NCBI RefSeq assembly: GCF_037975245.1
Contig: NC_092565.1
Coordinates: 7,368,999-7,432,998, forward strand
Direction: 5' to 3'
Origin: Apostichopus japonicus
Taxonomy: Eukaryota > Echinodermata > Holothuroidea > Aspidochirotida > Stichopodidae
Length of the DNA stretch: 64,000 nt
The notes beneath the pieces were generated by a model. It made no database searches and was not told the DNA's origin. It worked only from the letters and a program-made list of their open reading frames with translations. Made by a program: the position numbers and the translations under genes. Shown here in pieces: positions 10,639 through 62,700 of this stretch. Each line of letters opens with the position of its first letter. The first letter of the stretch is position 1.

Positions 10639-10993
10639 CAGTGGCGTAGGAAGGTACTTTTGAGTGGGGGGGGGCTGAAGACTGATGGCCGGCCTGGGGG
10701 AGGGGGTGTCCCCCTCCCCTTTGGAATTTTTTGGCATTTCCAGGTGGCCTCAGATGCAATTTGGTGCAATATAGCACACTTCAATACCCACTCCATTTTG
10801 TAAATAATTTGCATTTTCACCTGGCCTTAGATGCAATTTGGTGCTTCAAATGAGATTTTTTTCTCATTTGGAAATGAAAAAGGGGTTTTCTGACTTGCGG
10901 AGCGGGGGGGGGGGGGGCGGAGCGATACTTCCGCCCCCCATATTTTTCACTGGGGGGGCTGGCGCCCCCAGCCCCCCGGTTCCTACGCCCTTG
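10639..10993. mobile_element. hAT-like MITE copy 1, 355 bp, nested
   Basis: CAGTGGCGTAGGAAGG at the left end and GGTTCCTACGCCCTTG at the right give 12 of 14 matching inverted ends. TAGTCCCC is duplicated exactly at 10631-10638 and 10994-11001 (both copies also have a C next to them, so 8 or 9 bp). Nearly identical to 12188-12541. Confidence 0.85.
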
Positions 10994-12187: not shown

Positions 12188-12541
12188 CAGTGGCGTAGGA
12201 AGCTACTTTTGAGTGGGGGGCTGAAGACTGATGGCCGGCCTGGGGGAGGGTCTAAGGGGAGGGGGTGTCCCCCTCCCCTTTTGCATTTCCAGGTGGACTC
12301 AGATGCAATTTGGTGCAATATAGCACACTTCAACACCCACTCCATTTTGTAAATAATTTTGCATTTTCACCTAGCCTTAGATGCAATTTGGTGCTCCAAA
12401 TGAGATTTTTTTCTCATTTGGAAATGAAAAAGGGGTTTTCTGACTTGCGAAGCGGGGGGGGGGGGCGGAATGATACTTCCGCCCCTCCATATTTTTCACT
12501 GGGGGGCTGGCGCCCCCAGCCCCCCGGTTCCTACGCCCTTG
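12188..12541. mobile_element. hAT-like MITE copy 2, 354 bp
   Basis: Same ends as copy 1 (CAGTGGCGTAGGAAG / TTCCTACGCCCTTG), with an exact target duplication TAACAGAT at 12180-12187 and 12542-12549. Very high identity to copy 1, with small G-run length differences, indicates recent activity. It lies ~190 bp upstream of the HMG20-like start codon, so it may affect that promoter or 5' UTR. Confidence 0.87.
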
Positions 12542-12734
12542 TAACAGATCCAGTATCGTGAACTTTCAAGCGGGACCGCTGCACTGATCTTCTGTTGCTT
12601 AATCCTGACGTTAGGAAAACGACTTGAAGCAAGTCATGTGTACCGTAAACAGTAGTGAAACTCTTGGAAATGAACAATGAAATGCTGTACGTATATTATT
12701 ACGTGCATGCAGCCAATATCGGGCTCGGAAAGAA

Positions 12735-12841
12735 ATGGCAGATTGTGATGTAAATAAGGTAATAACAATCATGAGCGACAGCGATCAAGGGGAATCGATG
12801 ACGGTTCAAGAAGCACCCTTGATGGGTAAACTAACGCCACG
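12735..12841 (+). CDS. HMG20-like exon 1 (start)
   Basis: Begins MADCDVNKVITIMSDSDQGE in good context (AGAAATGG) and ends LTP plus CG before GTAAGG. An earlier donor-like GTAAAC at 12826 would break the phase with exon 2, so 12841 is preferred. Confidence 0.75.
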
Positions 12842-15800
12842 GTAAGGGGACATTTCTGTTTTATTCCATCGCGGCGTCCGAAGTATCATTCCCCAAAATT
12901 AGAATGAACGTATGACACAATGGCTAGGCTACAGTAGACCTAGGCCTAGACTAGCCAAAGTTGCCTCACTTAGCTACCACTACCAACCTGAGTGATGTTG
13001 TATCAAGCACAGCCCTTGTTGCGCATATAAAACTTAATTAACAGCCAATAACTTAATTCTGGATACCATCATAATCTAGGACACTATTGCATAATTAACA
13101 TGGAATAAAACGTAAATAAAAATAAAATAAAACTGTTAGCAAACTGCTTATCCCGCACTAGAGAGCCTGTGTAAGAGAATGTGTAAAAGTAAGTTGGCCT
13201 GACGCTTCGATCGTAGCAGGATCTTCTTCAAAGGCTAAAGAACAGTAACAGAAGGGACAAAAACACACACAGAATACAGACAGGTTAATGAGCATGGTGA
13301 ACACAAAGAGAAAGATGTAAGGGGATTAGTGGACAAGGGGAAAAAAATAATAATATAGAGTGTGGTCTCTATAGCATTGGCCAGCACATGGGTTCTGTGC
13401 GACCATCAAGTGCCATCCTTTACTACCAAACTGGGCAAGAAATATGAAGGAATACATACATGCACTTGACACATGTATACCTAGGCTGTAGCCTGATTTG
13501 GTATTTGGTGTCATTGCTTTTGCTTGTGCTTACAAATAGCAAATTAATCCATACAAAATATTTCTCTCATCCTATTTTTTGTACCATCTTTTGTCCACTT
13601 TTTAGACTGCTAAGAACATTGAGCAGTGAATCCAACTTGCAGACCCTATCGTTGGGAACTTCGTCAGACAATGATTCTTTGGCTACCATATCTTTGGCAG
13701 AGATTGGTGGAATCCCTCAGAGTGGATCAACGACTTCATTAGATCCAAATTTACTGATCGGTCTAAGCCCAGAGACATTGAACATGATGACCAACTCATT
13801 CCCATTTTTGCCGACTACCAGTGGTACAAACGATTTATCTATTGGAGCCTCGGGAGGGGATCTCCCAAATTGTTCAGTGAATGATTTAGAATCCTTAACC
13901 AGACATTCCTCGGATAGAATAGCTATCAGAACAAGGGTGTCAAACAGTCTTCCTTCTCAACCTGTCATGTCTTGTCTTAATACAATCCAATCTGGCAGGA
14001 CCAGTACAAGCAAGAATGAGAAGCCGTCATTAGGGCCTGCCATACCCTTGGAAGTAGATGGTGTTTGCAGTGACTCTAACGTTGTTACCATTATAAACAG
14101 TGCCATAGTTCGCAATCCTCAAGGAGTCTCGGGCATAAATTGTGCAAGAGCTAACTCAGACACTGTGACCATTTCACACGGTCAAGAAATACAGCCAAAG
14201 AGTAACCAGACATTAAACCTGTTTGACAACTCTCTGGAAACTAGAACTGATACCTTAAACAGTAATAGCCAAGACAGCTCCCATGTATCTGAAGGGACGC
14301 ACGAGCCTGTCACGGTAGAGGCATTCCTAAATGAAAGCCGACCAGGTCCTTCCCAAGAGAGTATGAGCTTAACATTATCAAGACCAACCAGCCTATCCAA
14401 TAGTGGTCAGGCTGTTTCCGATGGAGGTGTGGTACAGGCTACAGAGCCACAGCCCCCAGAGGACCCCCAGGGGCAAAATTCTTTATTGGTCGCTCCAGAA
14501 AACAATGTGCAATATGTCAGCATAACAGTTCCTAATGTAGAGATTAACAGCTCTGGTAAGATTTGTAGTTTTGATTAGTGTTATTAATTGAACTTATTTA
14601 AACAATGGACTGCTAAGATTAAGACTGAATGAGAAACAGGAGTTCTTTCATAAATAAAAAATGTGGTCTGATTTTAGCCTCTGAAGAAGATCCTGCTAGG
14701 ATCGAAACTTCAGGCGAACTTACCTTTACACATAAATAAAAAAAACTATACACTACCTACAGGTGTGGAAATATTCTATCGGCTGGGAATAATCTGGGGA
14801 TAACCTCATCTCTGTCATAGCATTATACTCTTTGACCTTGAACTATGAAAAATTCTAGAAGGCTGGAAAAAAAACATGCGTGGTCAGAAAGCGTAAACCA
14901 CAGCAGTGATGATGTCGGTGGGAAGTAGAGTTAAAATGCTAGCAAGTTGGTGGGATCACATAGCTGGAAAGAATGCTAGCAAAGTGGTGGGATCAGATAG
15001 CTGGTAAGAATGCTAGCAAAGTGGTGGGATCAGATAGCTGGTAGGAATGCTGGCAAGGTTGTGGGATCACAAGCTATGGTGATTATAAGACTGTGCCTTA
15101 AAGCACTGTGTGTTGAGCCAACGAAAAGAGCATAACTTGGAAATTTAAACCATTATGACTCTATAACTGCCAAATAATAACTTTGATGTGTGAAAAGAGT
15201 TCTTGCTAGAGGGCTCTATGTAATTGATATTTCACAAGACTTGCTTTGAAGACAAAAACATTAGTTGCTTTGTTAGCACAATAATTTTGGTCCAACTTGT
15301 GATTTTTGTTGTTGCAATGTTTGGTCGTTGATACAGCAATTGATCTTTTGTTTTATCCCCCCTAATCAGGTCAGCTGGTGATCAGTCACGTATCCCTTCT
15401 ACAGGCGCCACAGACCAACAGCTTTATTCCTCTAGTCACTCAAAGTGTCGAGGCCCCTGTCATCTCACAGACAGAGGTCCCTGACAGTACCTCGGATGGA
15501 CTCACACCTACTCTAACTGTAAGTATCAGTTGTGGGTGCTAGTTCATGCTATTACTGTTATATTGAAACAGATGCTCAGAAAGGGATTAAGAACTGTAAA
15601 AAGTTACACAAAATACCTGATATTGTATGGGGGCATCAAAAACGTGACACCAGAATCTGTTTTTTTTTTTGGGGGGGGGGGGGTTAGGTTGGGGAGAGTG
15701 GAAGGATGGTGATGGTAATAAGAAGGGGATGAGTTTATGATGGGGATGAATATTTTACACAGTGATGATATAACATACATGTATTACTCTATATAGGAGG

Positions 15801-18800
15801 AAGGAGGGATGGACGGAAGGGATTAATGGAGGTGAGATATGAAATTCATTTCAGTGTTGCTGCTCCGAGATATCTCAATAGCACAAAAACAATATTGACA
15901 CACAGAAGGGTCATGTTGGCATTTTGAAATTTTTATTCGAAACATGGGAAGTAAACCGAAACTCACGACCTCTCCCCCCCCCCCCCCCCTCTCCACTCTT
16001 TCTGGCTCTCTACCAGTTAAGTGTAGGGTTGATTGGTGTTGGTTACTTGCCAGACTGTCATATGACGAACGAAAAAAAGATTGAGTTTACTTTCAAAGGA
16101 TTCCCTCAACATGTTAATGCTTTACTCTGACTGAAAAAAGTTTGAATTCTCCTTTTCAGAGAAGAAAGGGAGGATGGCCAAAGGGGAAGAGGCGGAAGGT
16201 GAATCCAGTGGAGGCCACACAAGTACCAAGAGCACCTACCACATCGTGAGTATAGAGTTGTTGCTACATACTTGATTCATGTATAAATCTTTGATGGTCA
16301 GAAGCATTTCTGTTCAGTCAAAAAACAAAGTTCTTTCTAAAATTGGTACAACCAGAAATGTTTTGAAGGTAATTACGGCTCTTCTCTCACCCATCTCTTC
16401 ATCTCACCCATCTCTTCCCCCATCTCCTCCTCTCTTCACCCATCTCCTCCTCTCACCCATCTCTTCACCCATCTCCTCCTCTCACCCATCTCTTCACCCA
16501 TCTCTTTCTCTCACCCATCTCTTCACCCATCTCTGTCTCTCACCCATCTCTTTACCCATCTCCTCTCTTCACCCATCTCTTTCTCTCACCCATCTCTTCA
16601 CCCATCTCTTTCTCTCACCCATCTCTTTCTCTCACCCATCTCCTCTCGCCCATCTCCTCTCACCCATCTCTTCACCCATCTCCTCTCACCCATCTTTTCA
16701 CCCATCTCTTCACCCATCTCTGTCTCTCACCCATCTCTTCACCCATCTCCTCCTCTCTTCACCCATCTCTTTCTCTCACCCATCTCTTTCTCTCACCCAT
16801 CTCTTCACCCATCTCTTTCTCTCACCCATCTCTTCACCCATCTCCTCCTCTCTTCACCCATCTCCTTCTCTCACCCATCTCTTCACCCATCTCTTTCTCT
16901 CAACCATCTCTTCACCCAGCTCTTTCTCTCACCCATCTCTTCACCCATCACTTCACCCATTTCTGTCTCTCACCCATCTATACACCCAGCTCTTTCTCAT
17001 AGAGCAATGCTAGTATGAAGCCACTGTTGAGTATTAATTGTGATTGAGATTGTGATCTTTGAGTAGAATATTTATTTAAAAAAAAATTTGTCTTTATGAA
17101 TAAAAACTTGTGCCAAAAGGAACTGTTCCAAACAAGTACATATGAATATAGTTTGATATCAGTAATGTGTGCGAAGAATAAATGTTGCATAATAACCTCA
17201 TATGCTTCCTGAAAGCACCCATCACAATTAATCTCTTTTACAGTGACACTTCATAGATGCAATGTAAATATTTTTCCTGCCACAGAGTTACATCAAATAT
17301 GAAATATATTGTTAAGTTTGTTGTGTGAGTTTGACAAAAGATGAGGAACAAATCTGTTACTTTTCGTAGCACACATCTGCTTTTAGCTTTGGGCTTTGAC
17401 ACTTTCATAGCAGATTCAGGGCCGGACCAGGTCGGACTTGAATATAAAACTTAAAAGTTGTTGCGTTGTGAAGTGATGCAAGAATAAATATATGTGATTG
17501 ACACAGCAGGTAATGATGCAGTGTTAAAATGCAACCAACTTCTTGTAAAAAAAAAAAAACTTCTTTGTAGTTTCCTATTTTTTTCTTTTACCCAGGTACA
17601 TGATATATTTCCGTGAAAACAGAGAGAGGATTGAAAAGGAGCACCAGTCCTTATCTTTCAAGGATCTGTTGAAGGTTATCGGGAACAGTTGGGCGGCACT
17701 CACCGATGATGAAAGAAAGGTGAAAGAACTAGGAAATATAAACAGTGTAAAGTAAAGGATCTCTAATTTCAAATCTTATTAATAAAAAAAAAATTAATTA
17801 AAAAAAATTAAGGAGCAAAGTCAAAACTCATCGTTAGGCCATTGGATAATTCTGATGATGACTGTTTGGTCTAATTTGACAGATCTACAGGGATAAAGCG
17901 GCTCGACTTAAGCAGCAGTACCTCTCTGAGGTCAAGACTCACGCCCAGACAGAGGCCTATCAAACACTGATACGGAAGGAAGCTGTGAAGAAACTCAGCA
18001 ACGCTGATGGTATGTTACTCTGTCGTTGTTGTTTACGGATATGTCCGGTTGTTTCAAGGGCTTCCAAGGGATATGTCCGGTGGCTGACAATGTGACACTT
18101 GAAATGTAAAAGAAGAAATATTCTACACTCTCAGTCAAAAATATCTCTTTTCCAACTCTAGATACGGTTGCTTTGAATGTTAGCTTTTGACAAAAATAAA
18201 ACTCTCCCTATTTCCAAGAAGTGGATCATTAAAAGGGTGGTATGTGATTTCATCGTGATAAATTTTTAGAAGTGAAAAAAATCCTACGGCCCTTCAATGA
18301 AATTGTTGACGATTTGACCTTGAAATGTGTTATCATGTTTAATCCTATTTGTTTTTAGGTGACTTTCCTGGTAGCGATGATATCCTCTTCATGAGTGATT
18401 TCTCTCTGGTGGTGAGTTGTCAGTATTACTCCGTGGTTGTACCTCTACTCATCAAAGGTGGAGTGAGGGGTGTACACCACCCCCACCCCCTTTTTTCAAC
18501 CTTGCAAAAAAATTTAAAGTAGCTATCAACAAAATTATAAGGTTTCTTGGGTTGATGCTCCCAAACCTCCCTACATGGGTCCTCATCTCCTCCTAAACTC
18601 ACCCCTTGAAATGCAGAATAGCATGACCCAGTTATTTCACAGAAAGAGATCACTACCTTATTTGGAATGTTTTAATATCAGACAATTTTTAAAGGGCTCC
18701 TCTTTGCTTTGAAAGAAGCAGGTACTGTTCCAAGTTTTTAGTTGTTCCTTCACGCAGATAACTACGAAGATAAACCCTAGCCTCGAGTAATATTCCAAGC

Positions 18801-21800
18801 CGCTTGTTGCCTTTCCTACTGAGATTTCACTTTTCGTTGTATTTACTCAACTGAAGTGGTCTATGCTTGCTCTTAACACGAAAAGTCAAACTAAAAGCCT
18901 GCCAGTCAAATTAACTTCAGCAGTTAACCTACTTTTAAATTTCCACAATTCTTATATACGAGGTAAACTTCTCTATATACATACGCTAAGAACATGTAGG
19001 AAAAATTTGTTTGAGTGCTGATGCCTCCTTTGAAAATGAAACAGATCACTTCAAGAGTTCAAAGCTATTCTTTCTCTTAATTAGCATTCTCACTATGCAC
19101 TTTATGATCAAACTTATTCGTGGGGGGTCAGACAAACTTATGCTTGGAATCCAACCGGGCGTGAAGAATTTCAAGTGGTCTTGAAATTTGTTTTGCAGGA
19201 AGAGGATCCATTGAACCCCAACGAATTATATTGTAAAGTCTGTGACCAGTACTTCAGTAACGTTCACAACAAGAAAGAACATCTCAGCGGCCGACAACAC
19301 GTTAATACCGTCGGCAAGAAACTCTATTGCTGTGAGTACCTAATCTAATCTTAGCTTCTGTAAATAAGTTATTATTGTTGTTGTGGTTGATGTGGTTGTT
19401 GTTGATTATTATTATTAATATTATTATTATTATTACTAGTAGCAGTAGTAGTAGTATTAGTATAATTATTAGTGTTAGTATTATTTATTAGTAGTAGTAG
19501 TAGTTATAGTAGTAGTAGTAATATAATTATTAGTATTATTATCAGTATAATTATTTTTAGTATTATTATTATTATTGTTGTTATTATTATTAGTAGTAGT
19601 ATTAGTATAATTATTAGTATTTTTATGAGTTTAATTATTATTATTATTGTTTTGTTATTATTATTATTAGTAGTAGTATTAGTATAATTATTATTATATT
19701 TTTGGTTTCCTATTAATAGTTACTCAACAACAAGACCATCCTGATCAGGGCATTCCAGGAGCTGACCAATTAGAGGGTCTAGAGGAATCTGTCAAGAAGG
19801 ATCTCGCCAACCTCAGCGGCATATGAGCAGAAATTATGGAACTTCATGCACGTAAGGTTACATCCACCCGAATGATATCAAAGTATTTTACTGTGAAAAC
19901 TCAACTCAAAAGCATACGAGCAGAAATTATGGAACTTCATGCACCTAAGGTTACATCCCACTCGAATGATATCAAGTATTTAACTACATTTTAATGTGAA
20001 AACTCAACTCAAAAGCATACGAGCAGAAATTATGGAACTTCACGCACGTAAGGTTACATCCACTCCAATTATATCAAGTATTTAACTACATTTTAATGTG
20101 AAAACTCAACTCAAAAGCATACGAGCAGAAATTATGGAACTTCATGCACGTAAGGTTACATCCCACTCGAATGATATCAAGTATTTAACTACATTTTAAT
20201 GTGAAAACTCAACTCAAAAGCATAAGAGCAGAAATTATGGAACTTCACGCACGTAAGGTTACATCCCACTCGAATGATATCAAGTATTTAACTACATTTT
20301 ACTGTGAAAACTCAACTCAAAAGCATAAGAGCAGAAATTATGGAACTTCACGCACGTAAGGTTACATCCACTCGAATGATATCAAGCATTTAACTACATT
20401 TTAATGTGAAAACTCAACTCAAAAGCATACGAGCAGAAATTATGGAACTTCACGCACGTAAGGTTACATCCACTCGAATGATATCAAGCATTTAACTACA
20501 TTTTAATGTGAAAACTCAACTCAAAAGCATACGAGCAGAAATTATGGAACTTCATGCACGTAAGGTTACATCCACTCCAATGATATCAAGTATTTAACTA
20601 CATTTTAATGTGAAAACTCAACTCAAAAGCATACGAGCAGAAATTATGGAACTTCATGCACGTAAGGTTACATCCACTCGAATTATATCAAGTATTTAAC
20701 TACATTTTAATGTGAAAACTCAACTCAAAAGCATACAAGCAGAAATTATGGAACTTCATGCACGTAAGGTTACATCCCACTCGAATGATATCAAGTATTT
20801 AACTACATTTTACTGTGAAAACTCAACTCAAAAGCATAAGAGCAGAAATTATGGAACTTCATGCACGTAAGGTTACATCCACTCCAATTATATCAAGTAT
20901 TTAACTACATTTTAATGTGAAAACTCAACTCAAAAGCATACGAGCAGAAATTATGGAACTTCATGCACGTAAGGTTACATCCACTCCAATTATATCAAGT
21001 ATTTAACTACATTTTAATGTGAAAACTCAACTCAAAAGCATACGAGCAGAAATTATGGAACTTCATGCAGGTAAGGTTACATCCCACTCGAATGATATCA
21101 AGTATTTAACTACATTTTAATGTGAAAACTCAACTCAAAAGCATACGAGCAGAAATTATGGAACTTCATGCACGTAAGGTTACATCCCACTCGAATGATA
21201 TCAAGTATTTAACTACATTTTACTGTGAAAACTCAACTCAAAAGCATAAGAGCAGAAATTATGGAACTTCACACACGTAAGGTTACATCCACTCGAATGA
21301 TATCAAGCATTTAACTACATTTTAATGTGAAAACTCAACTCAAAAGCATACGAGCAGAAATTATGGAACTTCACGCACGTAAGGTTACATCCACTCGAAT
21401 GATATCAAGCATTTAACTACATTTTAATGTGAAAACTCAACTCAAAAGCATACGAGCAGAAATTATGGAACTTCACGCACGTAAGGTTACATCCACTCGA
21501 ATGATATCAAGTATTTAACTACATTTTAATGTGAAAACTCAACTCAAAAGCATACGAGCAGAAATTATGGAACTTCATGCACGTAAGGTTACATCCCACT
21601 CGAATGATATCAAGTATTTAACTACATTTTAATGTGAAAACTCAACTCAAAAGCATACGAGCAGAAATTACGGAACATCACCCACGTAAGGTTACATCCA
21701 CTCAATGATATCAAGTATTTAACTACATTTTAATGTGAAAACTCAACTCAAAAGCATACGAGCAGAAATTACGGAACATCACACACGTAAGGTTACATCC

Positions 21801-24800
21801 ACTCAATGATATCAAGTATTTAACTACATTTTACTGTGAAACTCAACTCAAAAGCATACGAGCAGAAATTATGGAACTTCATGCACGTAAGGCTACATCC
21901 ACTCGAATGATATCAAGTATTTAACTACATTTTAATGTGAAAACTCAACTCAAAAGCATACGAGCAGAAATTATGGAACTTCATGCACGTAAGGTTACAT
22001 CCACTCGAATGATATCAAGCATTTAACTACATTTTACTGTGAAAACTCAACTCAAAAGCATACGAGCAGAAATTATGGAACTTCACGCACGTAAGGTTAC
22101 ATCCACTCGAATGATATCAAGCATTTAACTACATTTTAATGTGAAAACTCAACTCAAAAGCATACGAGCAGAAATTATGGAACTTCACGCACGTAAGGTT
22201 ACATCCACTCGAATGATATCAAGCATTTAACTACATTTTAATGTGAAAACTCAACTCAAAAGCATACGAGCAGAAATTATGGAACTTCACGCACGTAAGG
22301 TTACATCCACTCGAATGATATCAAGCATTTAACTACATTTTAATGTGAAAACTCAACTCAAAAGCATACGAGCAGAAATTATGGAACTTCACGCACGTAA
22401 GGTTACATCCACTCGAATGATATCAAGCATTTAACTACATTTTAATGTGAAAACTCAACTCAAAAGCATACGAGCAGAAATTATGGAACTTCACGCACGT
22501 AAGGTTACATCCACTCGAATGATATCAAGCATTTAACTACATTTTAATGTGAAAACTCAACTCAAAAGCATACGAGCAGAAATTATGGAACTTCACGCAC
22601 GTAAGGTTACATCCACTCGAATGATATCAAGCATTTAACTACATTTTAATGTGAAAACTCAACTCAAAAGCATACGAGCAGAAATTATGGAACTTCACGC
22701 ACGTAAGGTTACATCCACTCGAATGATATCAAGCATTTAACTACATTTTAATGTGAAAACTCAACTCAAAAGCATACGAGCAGAAATTATGGAACTTCAT
22801 GCACGTAAGGTTACATCCCACTCAAATGATATCAAGTATTTAACTACATTTTAATCTGAAAACTCAACTCAAAAGCATACGAGCAGAAATTATGGAACTT
22901 CATGCACGTAAGGTTACATCCCACTCGAATGATATCAAGTATTTAACTACATTTGACTGTGAAACTCAACTCAAAAGCATACAAGCAGAAATTATGGAAC
23001 TTCATGCACGTAAGGTTACATCCACCCGAATGATATGAAGTATTTAACTACATTTTAATGTGAAAACTCAACTCAAAAGCATACGAGCAGAAATTATGGA
23101 ACATCATGCACGTAAGGTTACATCCACTCGAATGATATCAAGTATTTAACTACATTTTACTGTGAAAACTCAACTCAAAAGCATTCGAGCAGAAATTATG
23201 GAACTTCATGCACGTAAGGTTACATCCCACTCGAATGATATCAAGTATTTAACTACATTTGACTGAAACTCAACTCAAAAGCATACAAGCAGAAATTATG
23301 GAACTTCATGCACGTAAGGCTACATCCACTCGAATTATATCAAGTATTTAACTACATTTTAATGTGAAAACTCAACTCAAAAGCATACGAGCAGAAATTA
23401 TGGAACTTCATGCACGTAAGGTTACATCCCACTCGAATGATATCAAGTATTTAACTACATTTTACTGTGAAAACTCAACTCAAAAGCATAAGAGCAGAAA
23501 TTATGGAACTTCATGCACGTAAGGTTACATCCACTCCAATTATATCAAGTATTTAACTACATTTTAATGTGAAAACTCAACTCAAAAGCATACGAGCAGA
23601 AATTATGGAACTTAATGCACGTAAGGTTACATCCCACTCGAATGATATCAAGTATTTAACTACATTTTACTGTGAAAACTCAACTCAAAAGCATACGAGC
23701 AGAAATTATGGAACTTCATGCACGTAAGGTTACATCCCACTCGAATGATATCAAGTATTTAACTACATTTTACTGTGAAAACTCAACTCAAAAGCATACG
23801 AGCAGAAATTATGGAACTTCATGCACGTAAGGTTACATCCCACTCGAATGATATGAAGTATTTAACTACATTTTAATGTGAAAACTCAACTCAAAAGCAT
23901 ACGAGCAGAAATTATGGAACTTCATGCACGTAAGGTTACATCCACCCGAATGATATGAAGTATTTAACTACATTTTAATGTGAAAACTCAACTCAAAAGC
24001 ATACGAGCAGAAATTATGGAACATCACACACGTAAGGTTACATCCACTCAAATGATATCAAGTATTTAACTACATTTTACTGTGAAACTCAACTCAAAAG
24101 CATACGAGCAGAAATTATGGAACTTCATGCACGTAAGGTTACATCCCACTCGAATGATATCAAGTATTTAACTACATTTGACTGAAACTCAACTCAAAAG
24201 CATACGAGCAGAAATTATGGAACTTCATGCACGTAAGGCTACATCCACTCGAATTATATCAAGTATTTAACTACATTTTAATGTGAAAACTCAACTCAAA
24301 AGCATACGAGCAGAAATTATGGAACTTCATGCACGTAAGGTTACATCCCACTCGAATGATATCAAGCATTTAACTACATTTTACTGTGAAAACTCAACTC
24401 AAAAGCATAAGAGCAGAAATTATGGAACTTCATGCACGTAAGGTTACATCCACTCCAATTATATCAAGTATTTAACTACATTTTAATGTGAAAACTCAAC
24501 TCAAAAGCATACGAGCAGAAATTATGGAACTTCATGCACGTAAGGTTACATCCACTCCAATTATATCAAGTATTTAACTACATTTTAATGTGAAAACTCA
24601 ACTCAAAAGCATACGAGCAGAAATTATGGAACTTCATGCAGGTAAGGTTACATCCCACTCGAATGATATCAAGTATTTAACTACATTTTACTGTGAAAAC
24701 TCAACTCAAAAGCATAAGAGCAGAAATTATGGAACTTCATGCACGTAAGGTTACATCCACTCGAATGATATAATGTATTTAACTACATTTTACTGTGAAA

Positions 24801-26485
24801 ACTCAACTCAAAAGCATACGAGCAGAAATTATGGAACTTCATGTACGTAAGGTTACATCCCACTCGAATGATATCAAGTATTTAACTACATTTTAATGTG
24901 AAAACTCAACTCAAAAGCATACGAGCAGAAATTATGGAACTTCACGCACGTAAGGTTACATCCACTCAAATGATATCAAAGTATTGAACTACATTTTAAT
25001 GTGAAAACTCAACTCAAAAGCATACAAGCAGATATTATGGAACTTCATGCACGTAAGGTTACATCCACTCGAATGATATAATGTATTTAACTACATTTTA
25101 CTGTGAAACTCAACGTATTTTATACAAATGATATAAACAGTGACCACCATTCCGTCCATCTTCCAACAGAACGTGAACTCGAGGTCAAGAACTTGAAGAG
25201 AGAAGCGACAGATAATCTACTCAAGAATATCCAGTTAAACAGAGAGCTGAAAGACCTCCAGGTGAGGTCAAAAGTAAACCAGGTTTTAACCAAGTTTAAT
25301 TAACAATTAACAAGATAAACTTCAGAGAATGATAGAAAGTGGATAAAGGTTGATGTTTTGATAAATTGCCACAGTTGACTGAAATGGAGAATTACTTTCT
25401 TTGCTCTGCACTTGAGAATGTTATGTTTTTGTATAATAATTTATATATAATATTGAAAGTGGTCTCCCAATGCATTTGATTATATCGTCTATGAGATGAA
25501 AGCTCGTAAAACATTTGAAAAAGTGAATGTGATCTGTGGATACCAGAGATTATTCTAATGTTTGAAAGTGGTATCTGCTGTAATGTTCATGGTTGCATGG
25601 ATTTACTATGAGACAGCAATAAATAGACATGACCATACGGTAGACCTTAATGAAGAAAATGACAAAATTCATAGCATAACGTAGGTAGAACAAAGCTGGA
25701 TCATTGTCTGTAAATTGAACCCTTTTATTTTTGGTGGATAAACCGAAATCCCTTATGCACGCAATAATTATCTTCTCTAGTTATTCTTGTAAATATGGGA
25801 CATCATATTGCTTCCCACATTGTATTAAAATCTCATAACAATCGTTTGAACTGTTAGGGTTTTGGCATTATTTTCATATGGATATTAGCTCCCCCTTTCT
25901 GCTGTCATGTTTTTGTCATCATTTTCTTTTGCGGAGTGTCATTTTCTTTACTATAGTTTTGTACCGTTTGATGTACGGGATTTGTTTTTTTAAGATGCGA
26001 GCATTTATCGACCATGTAATGGATACAACAAAGTTGAAATCAAAATTAAATTAAATCAAGTCAAATCAAATCTTCATTATTTGTGGATGAAATGGAGTTT
26101 ATGAAGATGGAAAGTCTCTTTGTTCACAGGAAGGTTTGGAAGGAGTGTGGATGGCTTTCATTTTCGAGTGTTCGTCGACATACATTACTACCATTTAAAG
26201 TCTCACTACAGGAGTTAACGACCTATTGTTATTAGCTTAATTATATTTCAAGGGGATGACAATGCCTCCAAACAGCCTTGACCTATTTATTTTATTGTTC
26301 TTTGAAATTGCAGGATACCTACGAAAAGCTGGAAGTCGATCTGAAGAGTCTCAAGACAATCGAGGCGTCACTTCAGGGTAAATTAAGTGGCCTCCGTTTG
26401 CTGATGACATTATTTGGTGTCCTGCACTTCAGGTGACGAAAGCAGTAGAATTGACTTCTTGGGACTCAGGGATGAAGAGGAATAA
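12735..26485 (+). CDS. HMG20-like HMG-box protein, 12 exons, in-frame stop in exon 9
   Basis: Probable chromatin protein of the HMG20A/HMG20B (iBRAF/BRAF35) family, whose known members work with LSD1-CoREST corepressor complexes. Exons: 12735-12841, 13606-14555, 15370-15518, 16160-16245, 17596-17719, 17883-18009, 18359-18411, 19199-19331, 19720-19851, 25170-25261, 26314-26377, 26433-26485. They sum to 2,070 nt (690 codons) with every junction in phase. Order: Ser/Thr-rich N-terminus; basic GWPKGKRRK (~410), as in HMG20B; HMG box (~426-498) with TEAY soon after; C2H2 U1/matrin-type finger (544-566); coiled coil (~590-672) including YEKLEVDL, which matches the HMG20 coiled coil; acidic tail ending RDEEE. 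Codon 612 is TGA in the given sequence, which would remove the coiled coil. The zinc finger is not in the vertebrate HMG20 proteins as I know them. Confidence 0.85.
13180..14732. repeat. Inverted repeat pair flanking HMG20-like exon 2
   Basis: 13180-13240 (minus orientation) and 14671-14732 (plus) share ~60 bp including GAAGAAGATCCTGCTA and ATCGAA. The plus copy has CTGAAGA, the perfect stem GATCCT/AGGATC and GAAAC, which resembles the hammerhead-type motif of Penelope-like elements; the match is partial. Confidence 0.75.
13606..14555 (+). CDS. HMG20-like exon 2, Ser/Thr/Asn-rich N-terminal region
   Basis: A 950-nt exon, acceptor CACTTTTTAG|A and donor CTCTG|GTAAG. Codes ~317 residues with no domain recognised, rich in Ser, Thr, Asn and Gln, likely disordered. 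The open frame extends upstream to 13460, but that part is intronic by phase. It is flanked by a ~60-bp inverted repeat pair. Confidence 0.8.
14938..15076. repeat. 37-bp tandem repeat, ~3.7 copies (HMG20-like intron 2)
   Basis: Units begin at 14938, 14975, 15012 and 15049 with GCTAGCAA(A/G)(G/T)TGGTGGGATCA. Confidence 0.8.
15370..15518 (+). CDS. HMG20-like exon 3
   Basis: Acceptor TAATCAG|GTCAGC, donor CTAACT|GTAAGT. Codes GQLVISHVSLLQAPQTNSF and on to TSDGLTPTLT. No domain recognised; enters at phase 1 and leaves at phase 0. Confidence 0.78.
16160..16245 (+). CDS. HMG20-like exon 4, basic GWPKGKRRK motif
   Basis: Codes RRKGGWPKGKRRKVNP and ends with PRAPTT, the loop just before the HMG box. 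The GWPKGK(K/R)RK element directly ahead of the box is shared with HMG20B and acts as AT-hook/NLS-like basic sequence. Confidence 0.83.
16379..16996. repeat. CACCCATCTCTT simple-repeat tract (HMG20-like intron 4)
   Basis: About 600 bp of CACCCATCTC followed by TTTCTCT, CTCCTCT or TTC. The long ORF across it (16279-17013, Ser/Pro/His/Leu repeats) is not a gene. Confidence 0.85.
17596..17719 (+). CDS. HMG20-like exon 5, HMG box part 1
   Basis: Codes SYMIYFRENRERIEKEH and FKDLLKVIGNSWAALTDDER, covering helices 1-2 of the HMG box with the conserved Tyr/Phe, Gly-x-x-Trp and Leu-Thr-x-x-Glu positions. Minor-groove DNA binding. Confidence 0.9.
17883..18009 (+). CDS. HMG20-like exon 6, HMG box part 2
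   Basis: Codes IYRDKAARLKQQYLSEV (helix 3) then AQTEAYQTLIRKEA; the post-box TEAY motif is shared with HMG20A. Donor GATG|GTATGT. Confidence 0.9.
18359..18411 (+). CDS. HMG20-like exon 7
   Basis: A 53-nt exon, acceptor GTTTTTAG, donor CTGGTG|GTGAGT. Codes GDFPGSDDILFMSDFSLV, a short acidic/hydrophobic linker between the HMG box and the zinc finger. Confidence 0.75.
19199..19331 (+). CDS. HMG20-like exon 8, U1/matrin-type C2H2 zinc finger
   Basis: Codes NELYCKVCDQYFSNVHNKKE followed by HLSGRQH: Cys-X2-Cys-X12-His-X5-His, the U1-type/matrin zinc finger spacing, which often binds RNA or DNA. Acceptor TTTTGCAG, donor TTGCT|GTGAGT. Confidence 0.85.
19372..19700. repeat. TTA/TAG trinucleotide-rich tract (HMG20-like intron 8)
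   Basis: Mixed (TTA)n and (TAG)n microsatellite filling most of intron 8 and ending ~20 bp before the exon 9 acceptor. Confidence 0.85.
19720..19851 (+). CDS. HMG20-like exon 9 with in-frame TGA at 19824-19826
   Basis: Acceptor TATTAATAG|TTACTC, donor CATGCAC|GTAAGG. The frame gives TQQQDHPDQGIPGADQ through KKDLANLSGI, then TGA, then AEIMELHA and into exon 10 (QRELEVK) in phase. The ~51 repeat copies downstream have CGA, AGA or CAA at this codon, never TGA. The stop is therefore either a CpG-decay mutation, a polymorphism or an assembly error. Confidence 0.75.
19820..25112. repeat. 102-103 bp tandem array, ~51 copies, carrying the exon 9 donor
   Basis: Each unit reads AGCATACGAGCAGAAATTAT, GGAACTTCATGCAC, GTAAGGTTACATCC, then ATGATATCAAGTATTTAACT and a spacer. 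The first part is the 3' tail of exon 9 and GTAAGG its splice donor, so each unit repeats the exon-intron junction. Unit starts such as 19912, 20015 and 20117 give the period. The first unit is part of exon 9 and lacks TAACTACATT. A block at about 21290-22790 is especially uniform (CACGCACG, CAAGCATTT variants). It ends 57 bp before exon 10. Confidence 0.93.
25170..25261 (+). CDS. HMG20-like exon 10, coiled coil
   Basis: First unique sequence after the tandem array; acceptor TTCCAACAG|AACGTG, donor CTCCAG|GTGAGG. Codes RELEVKNLKREATDNLLK and IQLNRELKDLQ, a heptad-patterned coiled coil comparable with the HMG20 dimerisation helix. Confidence 0.83.
26314..26377 (+). CDS. HMG20-like exon 11, coiled coil
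   Basis: Acceptor AAATTGCAG|GATACC, donor CTTCAGG|GTAAAT. Codes DTYEKLEVDLKSLKTIEASL; EKLEVDL matches HMG20A EKLEVDV. Confidence 0.85.
26433..26485 (+). CDS. HMG20-like exon 12 (terminal)
   Basis: A 55-bp intron precedes acceptor CTGCACTTCAG|GTGACG. Codes DESSRIDFLGLRDEEE then TAA at 26483-26485. An AATAAA overlaps the stop (26481-26486), but the true polyadenylation site is not determined. Confidence 0.75.
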
Positions 26486-26486
26486 A

Positions 26487-29400
26487 TGGTTTGCAACTCC
26501 TAGTAGAAGGTAGCATACTACATATTAAATGCCCCTTTTACCTACTAAATCATTTCACCAAGTCAAAACTCTACCCCTCATCGGAAAGCGGCCAATCACA
26601 GCAAACTTCAATTTGATTGTCAGCAGGGAGAGCCATAAAATGATTAGCCACCCACTTATAAACAAGGCCTCATTACTCATTAGTGAAACAGATTTCGTAC
26701 ACAGTTCTTTAAAGTGGTTTAAAATGGCCTAAATTCCCACAATTGTACCACATGTACTTCCACATATACACGTTGCAATCTAAGCCACAAACTATCAAGT
26801 CCTATTTGATAAAATATCAAACATTATGTTTGGATTTTTTTTCCTGGAGTATGCTGTCAGTAGACGGTGGTGATTCTGCCATCGGTTTAGCAGCGTAGTT
26901 TTATTCGTGCCTTTAATCAGGTAGTGTCTGGTTGGGAATATCAGGTCACCTCATTAGCCAAGAAGGGACTCATCGGAAGTACGATACTCCGGTCGGATGG
27001 GTAGCATACGATAGGGTCTGTTCAAAGATTGGAAATGGATCCAAATTAGGTTTTGACTTTATAAAGGTCAATTTTGGCATTGGCTATACCTGACTAAGAT
27101 TGACCAGTGAGAGTTATACATTGAAGTCCATCATTGCTGTGGACAAAATGAAGCATAACTTTAGGTTTGAATTAATCACAGATTAGGGCACAGGTTCAGT
27201 TTGCAAATGTGACACAACTCTTCCTACAACATCATGCCCGGGTGTATAGTAACAACGCTCACATACATAGCATCATAACTAAGACTGCAGCACCCAAATG
27301 TATGCCATAGCACCATAACTCAAGACTACAACACCATGCCTGGGTGTATAGTAACAACGCTCACATACATAGCATCATAACTAAAACTGCAGCACCCAAA
27401 TGTATGCCATAGCACCATAACTTAAAACTACAACATCATGCTTGGGTGTATAGTAACAACGCTCACATACATAGCATCATAACTAAGACTGCAGCACCCA
27501 AATGCATGCCATAGCACCATAACTTAAGACTACAACATCATGCCTGGGTGTATAGTAACAACGCTCGCATACATAGCATCATAACAGACTACTGCACCCA
27601 AAATGCATGCCATAGCACCATAACTTAAGACTACAACACCATGCCTGGGTGTATAGTAACAACGCTCACATACATAGCATCATAACTAAGACTGCAGCAC
27701 CCAAATGTATGCCATAGCACCATAACTTAAGACTACAACATCATGCCTGGGTGTATAGTAACAACGCTCACATACATAGCATCATAACTTAGACTGCAGC
27801 ACCCAAATGCATGCCATAGCACCATAACTCAGACTACAACACCAACACTCATACAATGTTACCAAACTGATACCATGGCAGTATGACTCAAACAATAGTA
27901 TCAGCACCTATATTTAGCACAATTACTCAGACTATAGAATCATTCCTGAGACTATAGCATCCAGTAAATTTTCCAGTTAAGTTTATACCTCTGTGTAGAA
28001 GCCAGATCTTGTGATTTACATTGACAAGTATGCATATATATTGATATGAGTTTCGTTTATTTCAAAATCAGTCTCCTAAATTTTCCCCATGTCCCTTTAT
28101 GCTATGCATGTATTCTTTTTTTTTTTACCTTGCTAGTATTATTTTGCAGTATTAATTTTTAGACATAATGTTGCCTCAATGTAAGTATATTTTGCTAGGG
28201 TACGTTCATATTGCATAACAGCTCTTGCATAGTCTAAAATCTAAAAGAAAAAGCAGTCTTTTTTACTATTTTATTTTTAATGAATATGCATAATCGTGCA
28301 ATAGTAAAGCTCACAAATAAAAGCATGTCTTCGTTGGCCCTTGCGTTTTTTTTTGAAATATTTTGAAACAGGAGCTCCCTTAATAGTGTAGCTTGCAAAA
28401 CTTGAAACTACCATGTCGTACTATATAAAATGGTTCGTTGATGATGTCTTTTTTGGGGGAAAATACTTTTAATTTTCCTGGCAAAGAAATGCCAGGCAGC
28501 AACTACACTATTTGGAACTATAATGAGTTATGCAACATGTCGAAAGAAAAGCTGCCTATTGTGTGACACTGCACATTTCAAAAATTACGTCCTATGCAGC
28601 ATGGCTGCAGGATCCTGCAGCCCCTCAGCTTCTAACATTTGACACAATGCCTTACTGCATTCTTATTGAACAATGTACCAGTTACTGCTCTGGTAGGAAG
28701 TGTGCTACAGTGTATATATATATTTAATACTGAAATGCAATTTATTTATTTAGTTACGAATTTGTACAGTGTTCAGTTACAAGCAGGACTGTTTAAATAT
28801 CTAATTTTGTTTTTCATTTTGTATTACTTTTAGATTCTGTACTGAAAATATAATAATACTTAATACAGTATTTAAGAGTCCTTTTGTGAAATTCTGGTGT
28901 ATTGCTTATCCATAATTAAGTGGGTCTATAGTTTACAGTTTCAATGTTAATGATCTGTGATAAAGAAAACGTGGACAAATTGTTAAATTGATGACAGAAA
29001 GTATATGGAAATTTGTAACGGATTGATTGGAAGCGTTGCACATTAGTGTTGGAAGTGTTCATAAAATACATTACTTGATATGTGATATGAAATTAAAGCA
29101 CCTTATTAAACGATTGGTTCAGGTGTTTGACATGTCTATTTTGTATGAAAGAGCACAAAAAGACAAAAAGAACAGTGAAGAAACTACCATGATAGCATGC
29201 TCTGTTAAGTAAATATGACACTTTGAAAATTTCTTTGAGAACGACTAGTGTAGAAAGACTTACTGTGAGGGTGTGATGTCACAATCTCACTTCCTTAACA
29301 TTTGTGAATATATTTCTTTGAAAATTATTTACATTTTTTAACACATTTGAAAATAATATAATCAAAAATTCTTCAGATGTTTAAGTACTTCCTTTGACAA

Positions 29401-56746: not shown

Positions 56747-59700
56747 GTAGGCAACAGGGTTTATTATTATATAGAAATGCTGTTTAGGCTAGGCCTAACC
56801 TTATTCGGCCGCTTGTTCTGTAGTATTTTTGTAAATTTATACTAGATCTAATACTACTATTTAGGCCTAGACCTGCTAGCACTAGTACTAGTGCCAAAAG
56901 GACTAGGCCTAGTACTAGTAATACTATTAGCTTCTACCAGGGAGTTGTTATGGAACTTCCTGCTTCTACCCATTCCCGGCCATATATGTACTGCATATTG
57001 ACAACACCTACATTTATGTTACTGTTAGAAGTTATACTAGCCACATTACACCACATAGGTGCAAACCTTCATACCTTTCCGCCATAGGTTTCAATCCTCC
57101 CTGACATGACAGAATTGCTCGAAACCTATGGCGGCAAGGTACATTTTAGGAATGGATTTTACACTGGTGTATAGGAATGTATCGGAGAAACTTTCTTTGA
57201 ATTGCGCGAAAGGATAGGAACACCGTCTTCAAATGTGATGGTTCGCTGGATAGTCTGAATCGTATTTAAGACAAGATTGGGGATTTAATACAAAGTCTTT
57301 AATGCAGGCCTATAGGTTGATGGAATAGTTTTAATTGTAAGTTAGAAAGAGTCGATACACTGTCAATGTATAATACAATATATAATAGTTAATTGAATAA
57401 GCCAATTGATGCTATAATCACTCAGTCAACAATGAAGCAACGGCCCATCCTAAAATTTGTTACTTTATATTAATAACCTACATACTAACGTTACTCCTAC
57501 AAACGATAATGTGCTCTTTCCGCCATACAAACCGTGCTTCACCACCATGGCAAAATGGCACTTTTCTTTGGCGTAAAGAGCACATTTCTATGGCGGAAAG
57601 TACCGATGGCAGAATGACATGCCCCCAATATTCAGAAGGCCTAGGCCCTATAGTTAAATGCTAGGCTAGGGTTAGTATTAGGCCTACTGTTAGGTTTAAC
57701 TCTGATAAGCTGTGTCTTCCAACAAGGATTAGCAAGCCATAGCCCACTTTGGACCATTTGACTTTGAACTGAATTATTTTAATTTCAATGTGCTAATCCT
57801 CGATGCACACAAACAAAATTGTTGCTCTTATTTTTACATTGAGGCAAGTATGTTAATGGTTGTGCCCAGTTCATTGATTCCCTCAGGTTTGCCATTTATG
57901 CACTACAAAAAACTCAAGATTTTTACTAACTACAGTCTTTTTACAAATTAAACATTTCAATTGCAAAATGGGACATTCTTAACATCTAGGGATAAGTTGA
58001 ATGTTTAGAACCCACAGGAAGGTATGATTTTGGGAACTTCCAGCAATTTACAGCTGTTTAAAACTGTCAGTTATACATTGTTAAACCCTTTATAAACCCT
58101 GTTGTACAACTTGTCCTATAATTGACATATAATCCTGCTTGGTCCATTGGCTACTTTGTAAATATATTTTACATGAAAACCAATACTAATAATGTTAGTT
58201 TATCATTTCCACAAAAAAAAGGGGAATCAAATTATAGATGTCATATAAAAAATTAAAAAATCATAATTCTACTACATATGAGTTATAATGTGCTTTTCTG
58301 TTTAATGTCTCTACACAGTTGAAAGATGAGTTAAGTGCTATTCTACACTTAGCCCTCACGGACACTGACCAGTGGGTTTCTACTATAGCAGATATTTTGA
58401 GGTCATACCCTACCACAGGTCAGTTGAACCTTGACCTTGAAGAAAATCATCCATTCATCGCTGAAACTCTGAAGGATCTCAGAAAAACCTGTGAGTTAAA
58501 CACTGTAGCATAAATCTGTTAATAGTAATAAACTAATGAATGCAGATATAAATTGCATCAGAAATGGGGTGCAATTAAGTATACTGAACACTTGACTGAT
58601 TTGCAAATTGTGCTTTATACTTCGTCGTCTTAAAGGTTTAAAAATAACTATTTGGGAGCTGTCAGATGTCTGACACCGTCTTTGTGAGATGCAGACAGAC
58701 CTGCAGTGTGAGTACAAAACCGTGAGTAAGAGCACGGAGTCCCAAGAATGAGTTTCAACAAATTTACTCGAGTACGGACTCAACTACAAGCACAGATTTG
58801 TGGCCTTCCTGTCTGGATTGAGGGGTTCCAATAACAGTATTGCTTGAAATTGAATATTATGTAGATTGGTCAGTAATAATGCAACCTGGAAGTCAAACTG
58901 TTAATGAGCTAATAGCAGAAAGAAATGTTGATGAGTTAATGTAGTATTTTGGTGTACAGCATCTTAATTGCTAGTGCATTGTAGTTGTATATAAATCTCT
59001 TTGCTGTGTCATACATTGGTTGCATTAATTTCATATCCTCAGCTGTCTTCCTACATTCTCTATAAAACTTTGAGGCTCCAGTACTTCTTTCTGGTACCGT
59101 AAGGTACAGTACTCCAATATCCTTAATTGTTTTTTTATTTAACAGTGTCTGAAACAGATACCAATGCATTGCTTCCCTTGGAGTGTCAATACCTGAACAA
59201 GAATGCCTTGAACCAGCTAGTTGGAATGCAGGTTCCACCCGTAAAACATTTCCAATTGAAGAGAAAGCCAAAGTCGGCAGCATTGAGGGCAGAACTTCTA
59301 CAAAAATGTGAGTACCCAGATGTGAAATTCACAGAAACCTCTAGAATAATGTGAGTACCCAGATGTGAACTTCACAGAATCCTCTAGAGTATTGTGAATA
59401 CTCAGATGTGAAATGCACAGAAAGTACCTCTAGAGTAATGTGAGTACCCAGATGTGAATTTCACAGAAAGTACCTCTAGAGTAATGTGAGTACCCAGGTG
59501 TGAAATTCACAGAAAGTACCTCTAGAGTAATGTGAGTACCCAGATGTGAAATTCACAGAAAGTACCTCTAGAGTAATGTGAGTACCCAGGTGTGAAATTC
59601 ACAGAAAGTACCTCTAGAGTAATGTGAGTACCCAGGTGTGAAATTCACAGAAACCTCTAGAATAATGTGAGTACCCAGATGTGAACTTCACAGAATCCTC

Positions 59701-62700
59701 TAGAGTATTGTGAATACTCAGATGTGAAATGCACAGAAAGTACCTCTAGAGTAATGTGAGTACCCAGATGTGAATTCCACAGAAAGTACCTCTAGAGTAA
59801 TGTGAGTACCCAGGTGTGAAATTCACAGAAACCTCTAGATTAATGTGAGTACCCAGATGTGAAATTCACAGAAACCTCTAGATTAATGTGAATCCCCAGA
59901 TGTGAAATTCACAGAAAGTATCTCTAGAGTAATGTGAGTACCCAGATGTGAAATTCACAGAAAGTACCTCTAGAGTAATGTGAGTACCCAGATGTGAAAT
60001 TCACAGAAAGTACCTCTAGAGTAATGTGAGTACCCAGATGTGAAATTCATAGAAACCTCTAGATTAATGTGAATCCCCAGATGTGAAATTCACAGAAACC
60101 TCTAGAGTAATGTGAGTACCCAGATGTGAAATTCATAGAAACCTCTAGATTAATGTGAATCCCCAGATGTGAAATTCACAGAAAGTACCTCTAGAGTAAT
60201 GTGAGTACCCAGATGTGAAATTCACAGAAAGTACCTCTAGAGTAATGTGAGTATCCAGATGTGAAATTCATAGAAACCTCTAGATTAATGTGAGTACCCA
60301 TATGTGAAATTCATAAAAAAAACCTCTCATGTGAGTACCCAGATGTGAAATTCACAGAAACCTCTACATTAATGTGAGCACTCTAATGTAAAATTCACAG
60401 GAACCTCTACAATTAATGTGAGTACGCAGATGTGAAATTCACAGAGGCTACAGTAGCATGAGTAACCTGATGTGAAATACACAAGTTCTTTTACAGAAAT
60501 GTGTGTATCCTAAAAAGGGTAATTATTGCACAAGCCAATTATATTTATACATTTGTAGATAATAGTCTCATACTATATTTAAGGGTTTAAACTGCAGTAG
60601 TCGTAAACTGATGAATTATAAGAATTGTTATTTTGTCTCTAAATGCATGGAGTTTGTATATATTCATTTTTGAAAGAAAGCATGATATGTTACCATTTCC
60701 CAAATGTTGTGATATGTATTTATTGTTATCTTTAAGAAGTGATGTGGGGTGGGGGCGGGGGGGTAGTTGGATTAGAAAGTTTTGATGTAGTATTTTTTAA
60801 TTCTTTAGAAAAGTTGAGAACCAGGTTCTTAGATGTTCTTCTTTTTCCCCATGAAGCTATTTCCTTATTGAAGATGGTCAACGCTATTTTCAATGTTCCA
60901 CTTTTTTTCTTACTTGATTTATCGTTCTCTACAGCTGCCGAGGCACAACAACAATCCAAGAAACTAACAGGCTCATCGTCAATACCAATAAAGATCAGAG
61001 GAATTTCAAGAAAATCCTTGGATGAGAGTAAGTCATACATACTTAGCAACGAATCGTCGCCCAAGCGCCTGTCGTAATTTTTTATATTTTTTCGTACGGA
61101 GCAAAACAAAAACACATCTAACTTATTTAAATGGACATGGAAGATTTTATTGCAACTTTATGTAAGTGTTTGTGTGACTGCATAAACATGAGGGCCAACT
61201 TCTAAAAAATATCAAAATTGATTTTTACTATACATATGTTACACTGTTTGGCATATTTGTGAGCACTGTAACAGTACATGACGTGTACATTACAGTACGT
61301 GTACAGAACATGACGTGTACAGTACATGACGTGTACATGACTTGTACAGTACAGGACGTGTACAGTACATGACGTCTACATGACGTGTTTAGTACATGAT
61401 GTGTACATGATGTGTACACTACATGACGAGTACATGACTTGTACAGTACATGACGTATACATGACTTGTACATGACGTGTACAGTACATGATGTGTTCAG
61501 TACATGATGTGTACAGTACATGACGTGTACATGACGTGTACAGTACATGATGTGTACAGTACAGGACGTGTACATGACGTGTACAGTACACGATGTGTGT
61601 TTTCTTCGTCTCTGTCATATATCTAGATTTTAAATCTTGTTAAATCATAAAATTTCCACAGTGATTATTCAGCTACATTGTTTACCTCTTACTATTCTCA
61701 CCTATCTAGGTCCCATGCGCGGATTTTCAGCAAACAAACCGGCAAGTTTTCGTCAAGGGAAATCTCCTGTGAGCCGTTTGCCAATGAATCGAACAGGAAG
61801 TAGACTGGCTACAAATAGAGAGGGCGGTACAAAGGTAAGCTATTGATGCCTGGATATGGAGGAGACGGAAGGGGAAACATAAAAATCCTGACACATTTAT
61901 TACGTTGATGTCATTCAATTTTCCTCTGCTTTTCCAAACAATGTTATTCATTAGCTTGATTATAGGATATGTTCATTCCACATAGTATATTCAGAGTCAA
62001 AATATCTTCCATAACAGGAAATACAAGAGAGCTTCCTGGGTGACGAAGAGTTGAGAATCAAAATTGTTTTTCTTACTCGCTCATAAGACCTTGATTTGGT
62101 AAAAAAATTATAGGAATGATGAAATTCAAAAATTGCCGACTGAACCTACAAGGTGTTATTTTAGATCCACCCGATAATATCAAATCTATTACGTTTTGCT
62201 CAAAATAGTGTTCCAAATGGTCTGACATGATGAGATTAATTACAAAAATATTGCAGAAGTTTTTTGTCCATGGTAATAATCAAATTCAAATGTCAAATGA
62301 GAAATTCACAATACATATTCCATCTTTTTTTTTTGTTATTTGGAATGAAACTGGCGTTAGCCAATTTTGTTGTGGAGTGCAAAGTGTATAGGATGCTTAC
62401 CAAGGCCAATTGCAAATAGTTACTTAATTAAGGGTATGGAAGTATTGAGTGTGGCGAACTACTTTGTAGTGTACTGGTTGGTACCATTGGAATTGTGGCT
62501 TATGTGTACTGTATCGGAGTACTGAAGCACGGAAGGGGCATAATAATGATAACTTCCAAACATTGCAACAACAGTCAACATCTGAAATATGAACATTTTG
62601 CACATTTAGTGTATCTCTCCCCCCCCCCCCCCCCCCTCAATACAGATTGCCTTAGCATGGAAGGATTACGGCTGCATCACCCTTGGCGCCATCCACCCTC

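Follow-up and report, generated by a model that had tools for sequence, protein, structure and literature searches.

A tandem array in intron 9 of an HMG20-like gene of Apostichopus japonicus repeats the exon 9 tail together with its donor site

Results

The host gene

The window analysed here, a stretch of 64,000 nucleotides of Apostichopus japonicus DNA, carries an HMG20-like gene on its plus strand (12735-26436). Exons were placed by eye, and the model was then checked by script for phase and GT-AG junctions. It has 11 coding exons joined in phase by GT-AG introns, and its 2076 nt contain one internal stop. Exons 1 to 4 lie at 12735-12841, 13606-14555, 15370-15518 and 16160-16245, and exons 5 to 8 at 17596-17719, 17883-18009, 18359-18411 and 19199-19331. 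Exon 9 (132 nt) occupies 19720-19851, exon 10 occupies 25170-25261 and exon 11 occupies 26314-26436, all on the plus strand.

The HMG box (PF00505) scored 54 bits against a cut-off of 25.4. A jaz-type zinc finger scored 21.3 bits, just under its curated cut-off of 22.6. When the segment that starts with the HMG box and ends at the stop was compared with solved structures, the best match was 2crj (E 1e-10), which has the database title SWI/SNF-related subfamily E member and which we take to be mouse HMG20B. Because of the PF00505 box and the 2crj match, the HMG20-like label of the first-pass annotation is reasonable, and the gene is probably a chromatin gene. It shares the HMG box with HMG20A and HMG20B (BRAF35), and the region 3′ of the box looks coiled-coil-like by eye. 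Between the box and the coil-like region, it has a candidate jaz-type zinc finger, scoring just below the cut-off, which vertebrate HMG20 proteins are not known to have. In human HMG20B, the coiled-coil region is reported to bind LSD1 (PMC7613766), and a C-terminal region is reported to be required for cytokinesis (PMC4614378).

The genome (671,581,487 bases in 35 contigs) was searched with several parts of the locus; these searches score the best candidates only. With the HMG and zinc-finger part, no second intact copy of the gene was found among the 10 matches listed. Five of these were exons of the same gene, and five were weak HMG-box matches (E 0.0058 or worse). Exon 10 gave a single listed match.

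A dispersed G-run-rich repeat was seen by eye beside the gene, in two similar copies at about 10640-10990 and 12189-12545. Within intron 4, CTCTTCACCCAT-like units form a CT-rich array (16379-16998), which is pyrimidine-rich on the sense strand and could mimic polypyrimidine tracts. Most of intron 8 is an ATT/AGT trinucleotide repeat (19405-19697), which ends about 22 bp before exon 9.

The array in intron 9

Intron 9 contains a tandem array, for which Tandem Repeats Finder reported a period of 102 bp, 51.2 copies and 96% matches. By motif splitting, the array resolved into 52 units at 19819-25115 on the plus strand. The consensus unit of 102 bp consists of 33 nt of exon tail followed by 69 nt of intron-type sequence that begins with the donor. 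Unit lengths are 102 bp (n=29), 103 bp (n=16), 100 bp (n=3), 101 bp (n=2), 96 bp (n=1) and 93 bp (n=1), and 38 distinct sequences occur among the 52 units.

Unit 1 (19819-19911, 93 nt) comprises 33 nt from the end of exon 9, the authentic exon 9 donor GTAAGG (19852-19857, plus strand) and the first part of intron 9. The array therefore adjoins the exon, and the exon's donor lies in its first unit. Units 2 to 52 all lie within the intron, and each repeats the exon tail, the donor position and the intron sequence. Mean identity is 95% among units 2 to 52. Unit 1 is lower, at 84%, mostly through the 10-nt difference in length.

The donor motif recurs in 50 of the 51 further units. Counting unit 1, GTAAGG is present in 51 of 52, with 48 CAC/GTAAGG (CACGTAAGG), two CAG/GTAAGG (CAGGTAAGG, units 13 and 48) and one TAC/GTAAGG (TACGTAAGG); the number expected in intron 9 from base composition is 0.62. 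Unit 2 alone has lost the donor and reads CTAAGG (19945-19950, plus strand). The intron measures 5318 nt from the first donor to exon 10, and 117 nt from the last. A 201-base query from around unit 1 was searched against the genome, and the 52 matches listed all fall at the array locus.

The first-pass annotation had described a tandem array of about 51 copies whose unit was an exon tail with its 5′ splice site and adjoining intron, and both the copy number and the unit anatomy agree with what we found. The span it gave, 19720-25261, needs correction, as it takes in exons 9 and 10. Between the array and exon 10 lie about 55 bp rather than the proposed 57 bp. It had also put the donor CAC/GTAAGG and about 55 bp of intron in each unit; the donor is right, but the intron part is 69 nt in the consensus.

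Past the last coding exon of the gene, a second array with a period of 102 bp and about 6 copies lies at 27224-27841. Kinship between this array and the one in intron 9 was considered and rejected: the local alignment score of 15 was matched by 218 of 300 shuffles, and the shared period is a coincidence. Farther along the window are an array with a 46-bp unit in about 26 copies (59305-60445) and an array of ACAGTACATGACGTGT-like units (61271-61598).

Strength and accessibility of the donors

We scored donors with a weight matrix and by the energy of the duplex with the 5′ end of U1, and compared the ten donors of the gene. The exon 9 donor has a weight score of 3.09 with this matrix, which places it sixth of the ten, and its U1 duplex of -5.1 kcal/mol is the weakest of the ten. 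Outside the array, 79 plus-strand GT sites score at least as high. The donor CAC/GTAAGG is thus middling rather than strong. The earlier claim of about fifty near-identical strong donors holds for their number but not for their strength. Two copies do score well: the CAG/GTAAGG sites of units 13 and 48 reach 7.43 and -11.5 kcal/mol, and both outscore the true donor.

In folding predictions, the unpaired probability of the donor hexamer was 0.004 in unit 1, with a median of 0.007 over the decoys and 0.107 over all six-base windows. At each of the three settings used, the decoys were less accessible than the median of the other GTs (0.0072 compared with 0.028 at one of them). Masking of the donors by RNA structure was nevertheless rejected. 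The fold of unit 1 in its context had a z of +1.20, with 179 of 200 shuffles as good, and a three-unit fold had a z of -0.52, with 28 of 100 shuffles as good. The authentic donors of the gene cover the same range of unpaired probability.

Splice acceptors and reading frame in the array

The acceptor of exon 10 (25150-25169, plus strand) has a pyrimidine tract of 13/16. By pyrimidine count, the two AGs examined in the unit have 7 and 6 pyrimidines of 16, compared with 10-14 in the ten real acceptors. Because their AGs lack acceptor-like pyrimidine content, the array units appear to be half-exons with no credible 3′ splice site, and not tandem exons. A search for coding sequence in the array on both strands found none, the longest open stretch being 64 codons in sense and 35 in antisense.

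Continuing the exon 9 frame into the intron leaves unit 1 open over its 93 nt, apart from the exonic stop described below. The next in-frame stop is a TAA at 19992-19994 (plus strand) in the intronic part of unit 2. Since this stop lies before all decoys that have a GT, use of any of them would give a stopped message. The unit 2 donor is the only copy whose use would avoid the stop at 19992, and it is also the only dead one. This may be accidental (1 in 51) or may be a mark left by selection. At the other end of the array, the last decoy (25053-25058, plus strand) would give the 117-nt intron to exon 10.

An in-frame stop codon in exon 9

The first-pass annotation had read the codons SIRAEIMELHA at the end of exon 9. 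In the exon copy itself, we found an in-frame TGA at 19824-19826 (plus strand), from both the exon model and the comparison of units, and the frame reads LANLSGI-stop-AEIMELHA. This TGA is the sole internal stop in the 2076-nt model. At the same position, the other 51 units have CGA (40 units), AGA (7 units) or CAA (4 units). The array therefore keeps Arg and Gln versions of a codon that reads as a stop in exon 9 itself. A single C-to-T change at a CpG, a common kind of point mutation, separates TGA from CGA.

The last exon junction follows 117 nt after the stop. By the mammalian rule, a stop that far upstream of the last junction leads to nonsense-mediated decay, so the message stopped in exon 9 would be a target of decay if this rule applies. 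If it escaped decay, the message would give a protein of 611 residues with the last 79 missing. These 79 residues gave weak matches to coiled-coil segments, with a best E of 0.25 in PDB and 0.066 in Pfam, the latter below the cut-off. We considered whether an earlier donor within exon 9 could let the transcript skip the stop. This is implausible, because only two GTs lie upstream and they score -5.65 and -7.77. The stop belongs to one assembly and may be fixed, polymorphic or an error alike.

Variation among the units

Units 23 to 29, seven in a row, are identical, and a 323-bp exact repeat occurs 35 units apart. Mean distance between units is lower at lags 9 and 35. The unit distances, the run of identical units and the 323-bp repeat point to unequal exchange.

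We counted minority cells per alignment position in units 2 to 52. The donor hexamer shows a single minority cell, a count not exceeded in 25 of the 97 six-base windows in the unit. The nine bases from -3 to +6 have 4, and 33 of 94 windows are likewise low. With insertion columns excluded, exon-derived positions average 1.36 minority cells and the remaining intron-derived positions 1.33. Codon changes in the exon-derived part comprise 3 synonymous and 8 nonsynonymous types, with 22% synonymous expected. Special conservation of the donor or of the exon-derived codons was thus not found in units 2 to 52. With no extra donor conservation and no synonymous bias, the copies look neutral.

U1 snRNA genes

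A search of the genome with the U1 family found 42 places above the family cut-off among the matches listed, all on one contig (C20). Forty-one lie in a cluster at 29043583-29087219, and one stands apart at 29019462. Three copies in C20:29073173-29076337 have the canonical 5′ end ATACTTACCTG. In the cluster, neighbouring U1 copies are mostly about 856 bp apart.

Discussion

Origin and likely effect of the array

We propose a tandem duplication of a single segment that ran from the last part of exon 9 across the donor into the beginning of intron 9. The left edge of the array in exon 9 (CCTCAGCGG) and its right edge in the intron (AACTCAACG) both have CTCA, and because the edges share this tetranucleotide, the duplication junction was likely formed by microhomology. 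The copies would then have expanded to 52 by unequal exchange. Before this, the intron was presumably short, as the 117 nt measured from the last donor suggest, and it would have grown to its present 5318 nt. If intron 9 is given its presumed earlier length, the probability that a 102-bp seed placed randomly in the gene covers one of its donors is 0.12. Tandem Repeats Finder also reported other tandem arrays in and beside the gene.

The acceptor of exon 9, which lies 132 nt before the first donor, would still define that exon. Splicing would mostly ignore the remaining 50 donors, none of which follows a credible acceptor of its own. Under exon definition, the first donor should have the advantage, with a real acceptor 132 nt away. 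The array may cause low-level mis-splicing, in which any decoy would put the in-frame TAA of unit 2 into the message. Most likely, its effect on splicing is little or none. We therefore favour, as fairly probable, the reading that the array is a neutral minisatellite of the intron, started when an exon/intron boundary was duplicated, with the choice of the first donor, the neutrality and the fate of the message being parts that we infer.

Several points count against this neutral reading. The 117-nt intron from the last decoy could suit intron definition, and two decoys outscore the true donor. That the decoy nearest to exon 9 is the sole dead one of 51 could reflect selection as well as chance, and selection would equally yield 50 intact donors in the 51 downstream units. 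By analogy, the donor-bearing repeat of human ABCA7, discussed below, is not inert.

Alternative readings

The decoys could instead rival the middling first donor and produce messages that are stopped and degraded, which would lower or regulate the full-length output. All 50 decoys are the same as or better than the donor (7.43 in units 13 and 48 against 3.09), the last one offers the 117-nt intron, any reading past unit 2 meets a stop, and a donor-bearing repeat does alter splicing in ABCA7 (PMC5954066). We consider such a switch unlikely, however: the donors have no excess conservation, the exon copy has a stop already, and retention of one unit in ABCA7 is reported at about 2% and independent of length (PMC5954066). 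A more elaborate form of competition is conceivable, in which the mediocre donor 9 and the decoys, two of them strong and the last with a short intron, compete for one acceptor. Array length would then set the share of message with exons 10 and 11 in frame, and the array would also serve as a store of exon tails able to rewrite the end of exon 9, stop included, by unit exchange. We give this dose control little credence. The first-pass annotation had also suggested an alternative-splicing hotspot, and the array may be one.

It is very unlikely that an error of assembly or consensus has produced a wrong copy number, a wrong stop codon or both. Seven identical units in a row are open to miscounting, and the stop is the only one that interrupts the gene; the 38 distinct unit sequences, however, speak for a real array. 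The published Apostichopus japonicus assembly is reported as 671,643,915 bases in 34 scaffolds, made with hifiasm from HiFi reads averaging 14.7 kb in length, at 64x (PMC10344927). An artefact becomes less likely because such reads could span the 5.3-kb array, if ours is the same assembly. If the stop is real, exon 9 might end a shorter isoform, with the last 79 residues lost or being lost and the array growing since splicing no longer mattered. The in-frame TGA fits this reading, as does the lack of a second gene copy among the genome matches listed. Exons 10 and 11, however, are open and in phase with good splice sites, and because the other units lack the stop, it probably arose after most of the array had formed. 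We regard the shorter isoform as highly improbable.

The suggestion of the first-pass annotation that the transcript may be a sink for U1 snRNP fares worse still. In this reading, extended here to a U1 shield, the array would hold U1 snRNP on the nascent transcript, either titrating it or suppressing premature polyadenylation. There are indeed 51 GTAAGG sites, and intron 9 has no AATAAA or ATTAAA. But pairing at each site is the weakest among the ten donors of the gene, and it is set against 42 U1 places among the genome matches listed; fifty sites on the nascent transcripts of one gene are few compared with the usual U1 pool. The absence of poly(A) signals also leaves little to shield and, in a repeat, shows just that the unit lacks them. 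A U1 sink or shield is extremely improbable. Overall, we keep to the neutral minisatellite.

Comparison with known systems

Tandemly repeated exons with both splice sites are known from the titin- and nebulin-type exon repeats and from the EBV W repeats. They resemble the present array in repeating a 5′ splice site. Their units, however, have both splice sites, whereas here we see no credible 3′ site.

The closer precedent, by analogy, is the VNTR in intron 18 of human ABCA7, the only array with an exon's donor that we noticed in a literature search covering titles and abstract openings. Like the sea cucumber array, it is an intronic minisatellite that abuts an exon and carries the exon's donor: the first GT of the repeat is the donor, and alleles are reported with about 12 to about 427 units (PMC5954066). 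Its unit is 25 bp and begins at the GT, whereas the sea cucumber unit measures 102 bp, 33 nt of which are coding exon tail. When one ABCA7 unit is retained, the frame shifts and a stop results, and skipping of the next exon rises with repeat length (PMC5954066). A stop codon in the exon copy is found in the sea cucumber array, unlike in ABCA7. Length polymorphism and splicing have been measured for ABCA7, whereas the sea cucumber array is known from the sequence of one haplotype.

The present array may thus be a second donor-bearing case, this time from an invertebrate and with a longer unit. It indicates that the edge of a coding exon can be drawn into a minisatellite. It also offers a natural test of 5′ splice site choice among about fifty near-identical donors that lie in the same context and differ mainly in distance: use of the first donor alone would mean that exon definition dominates, and use of the last would mean intron definition. 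A second case beside ABCA7 would help to judge whether donor-bearing arrays generally disturb splicing.
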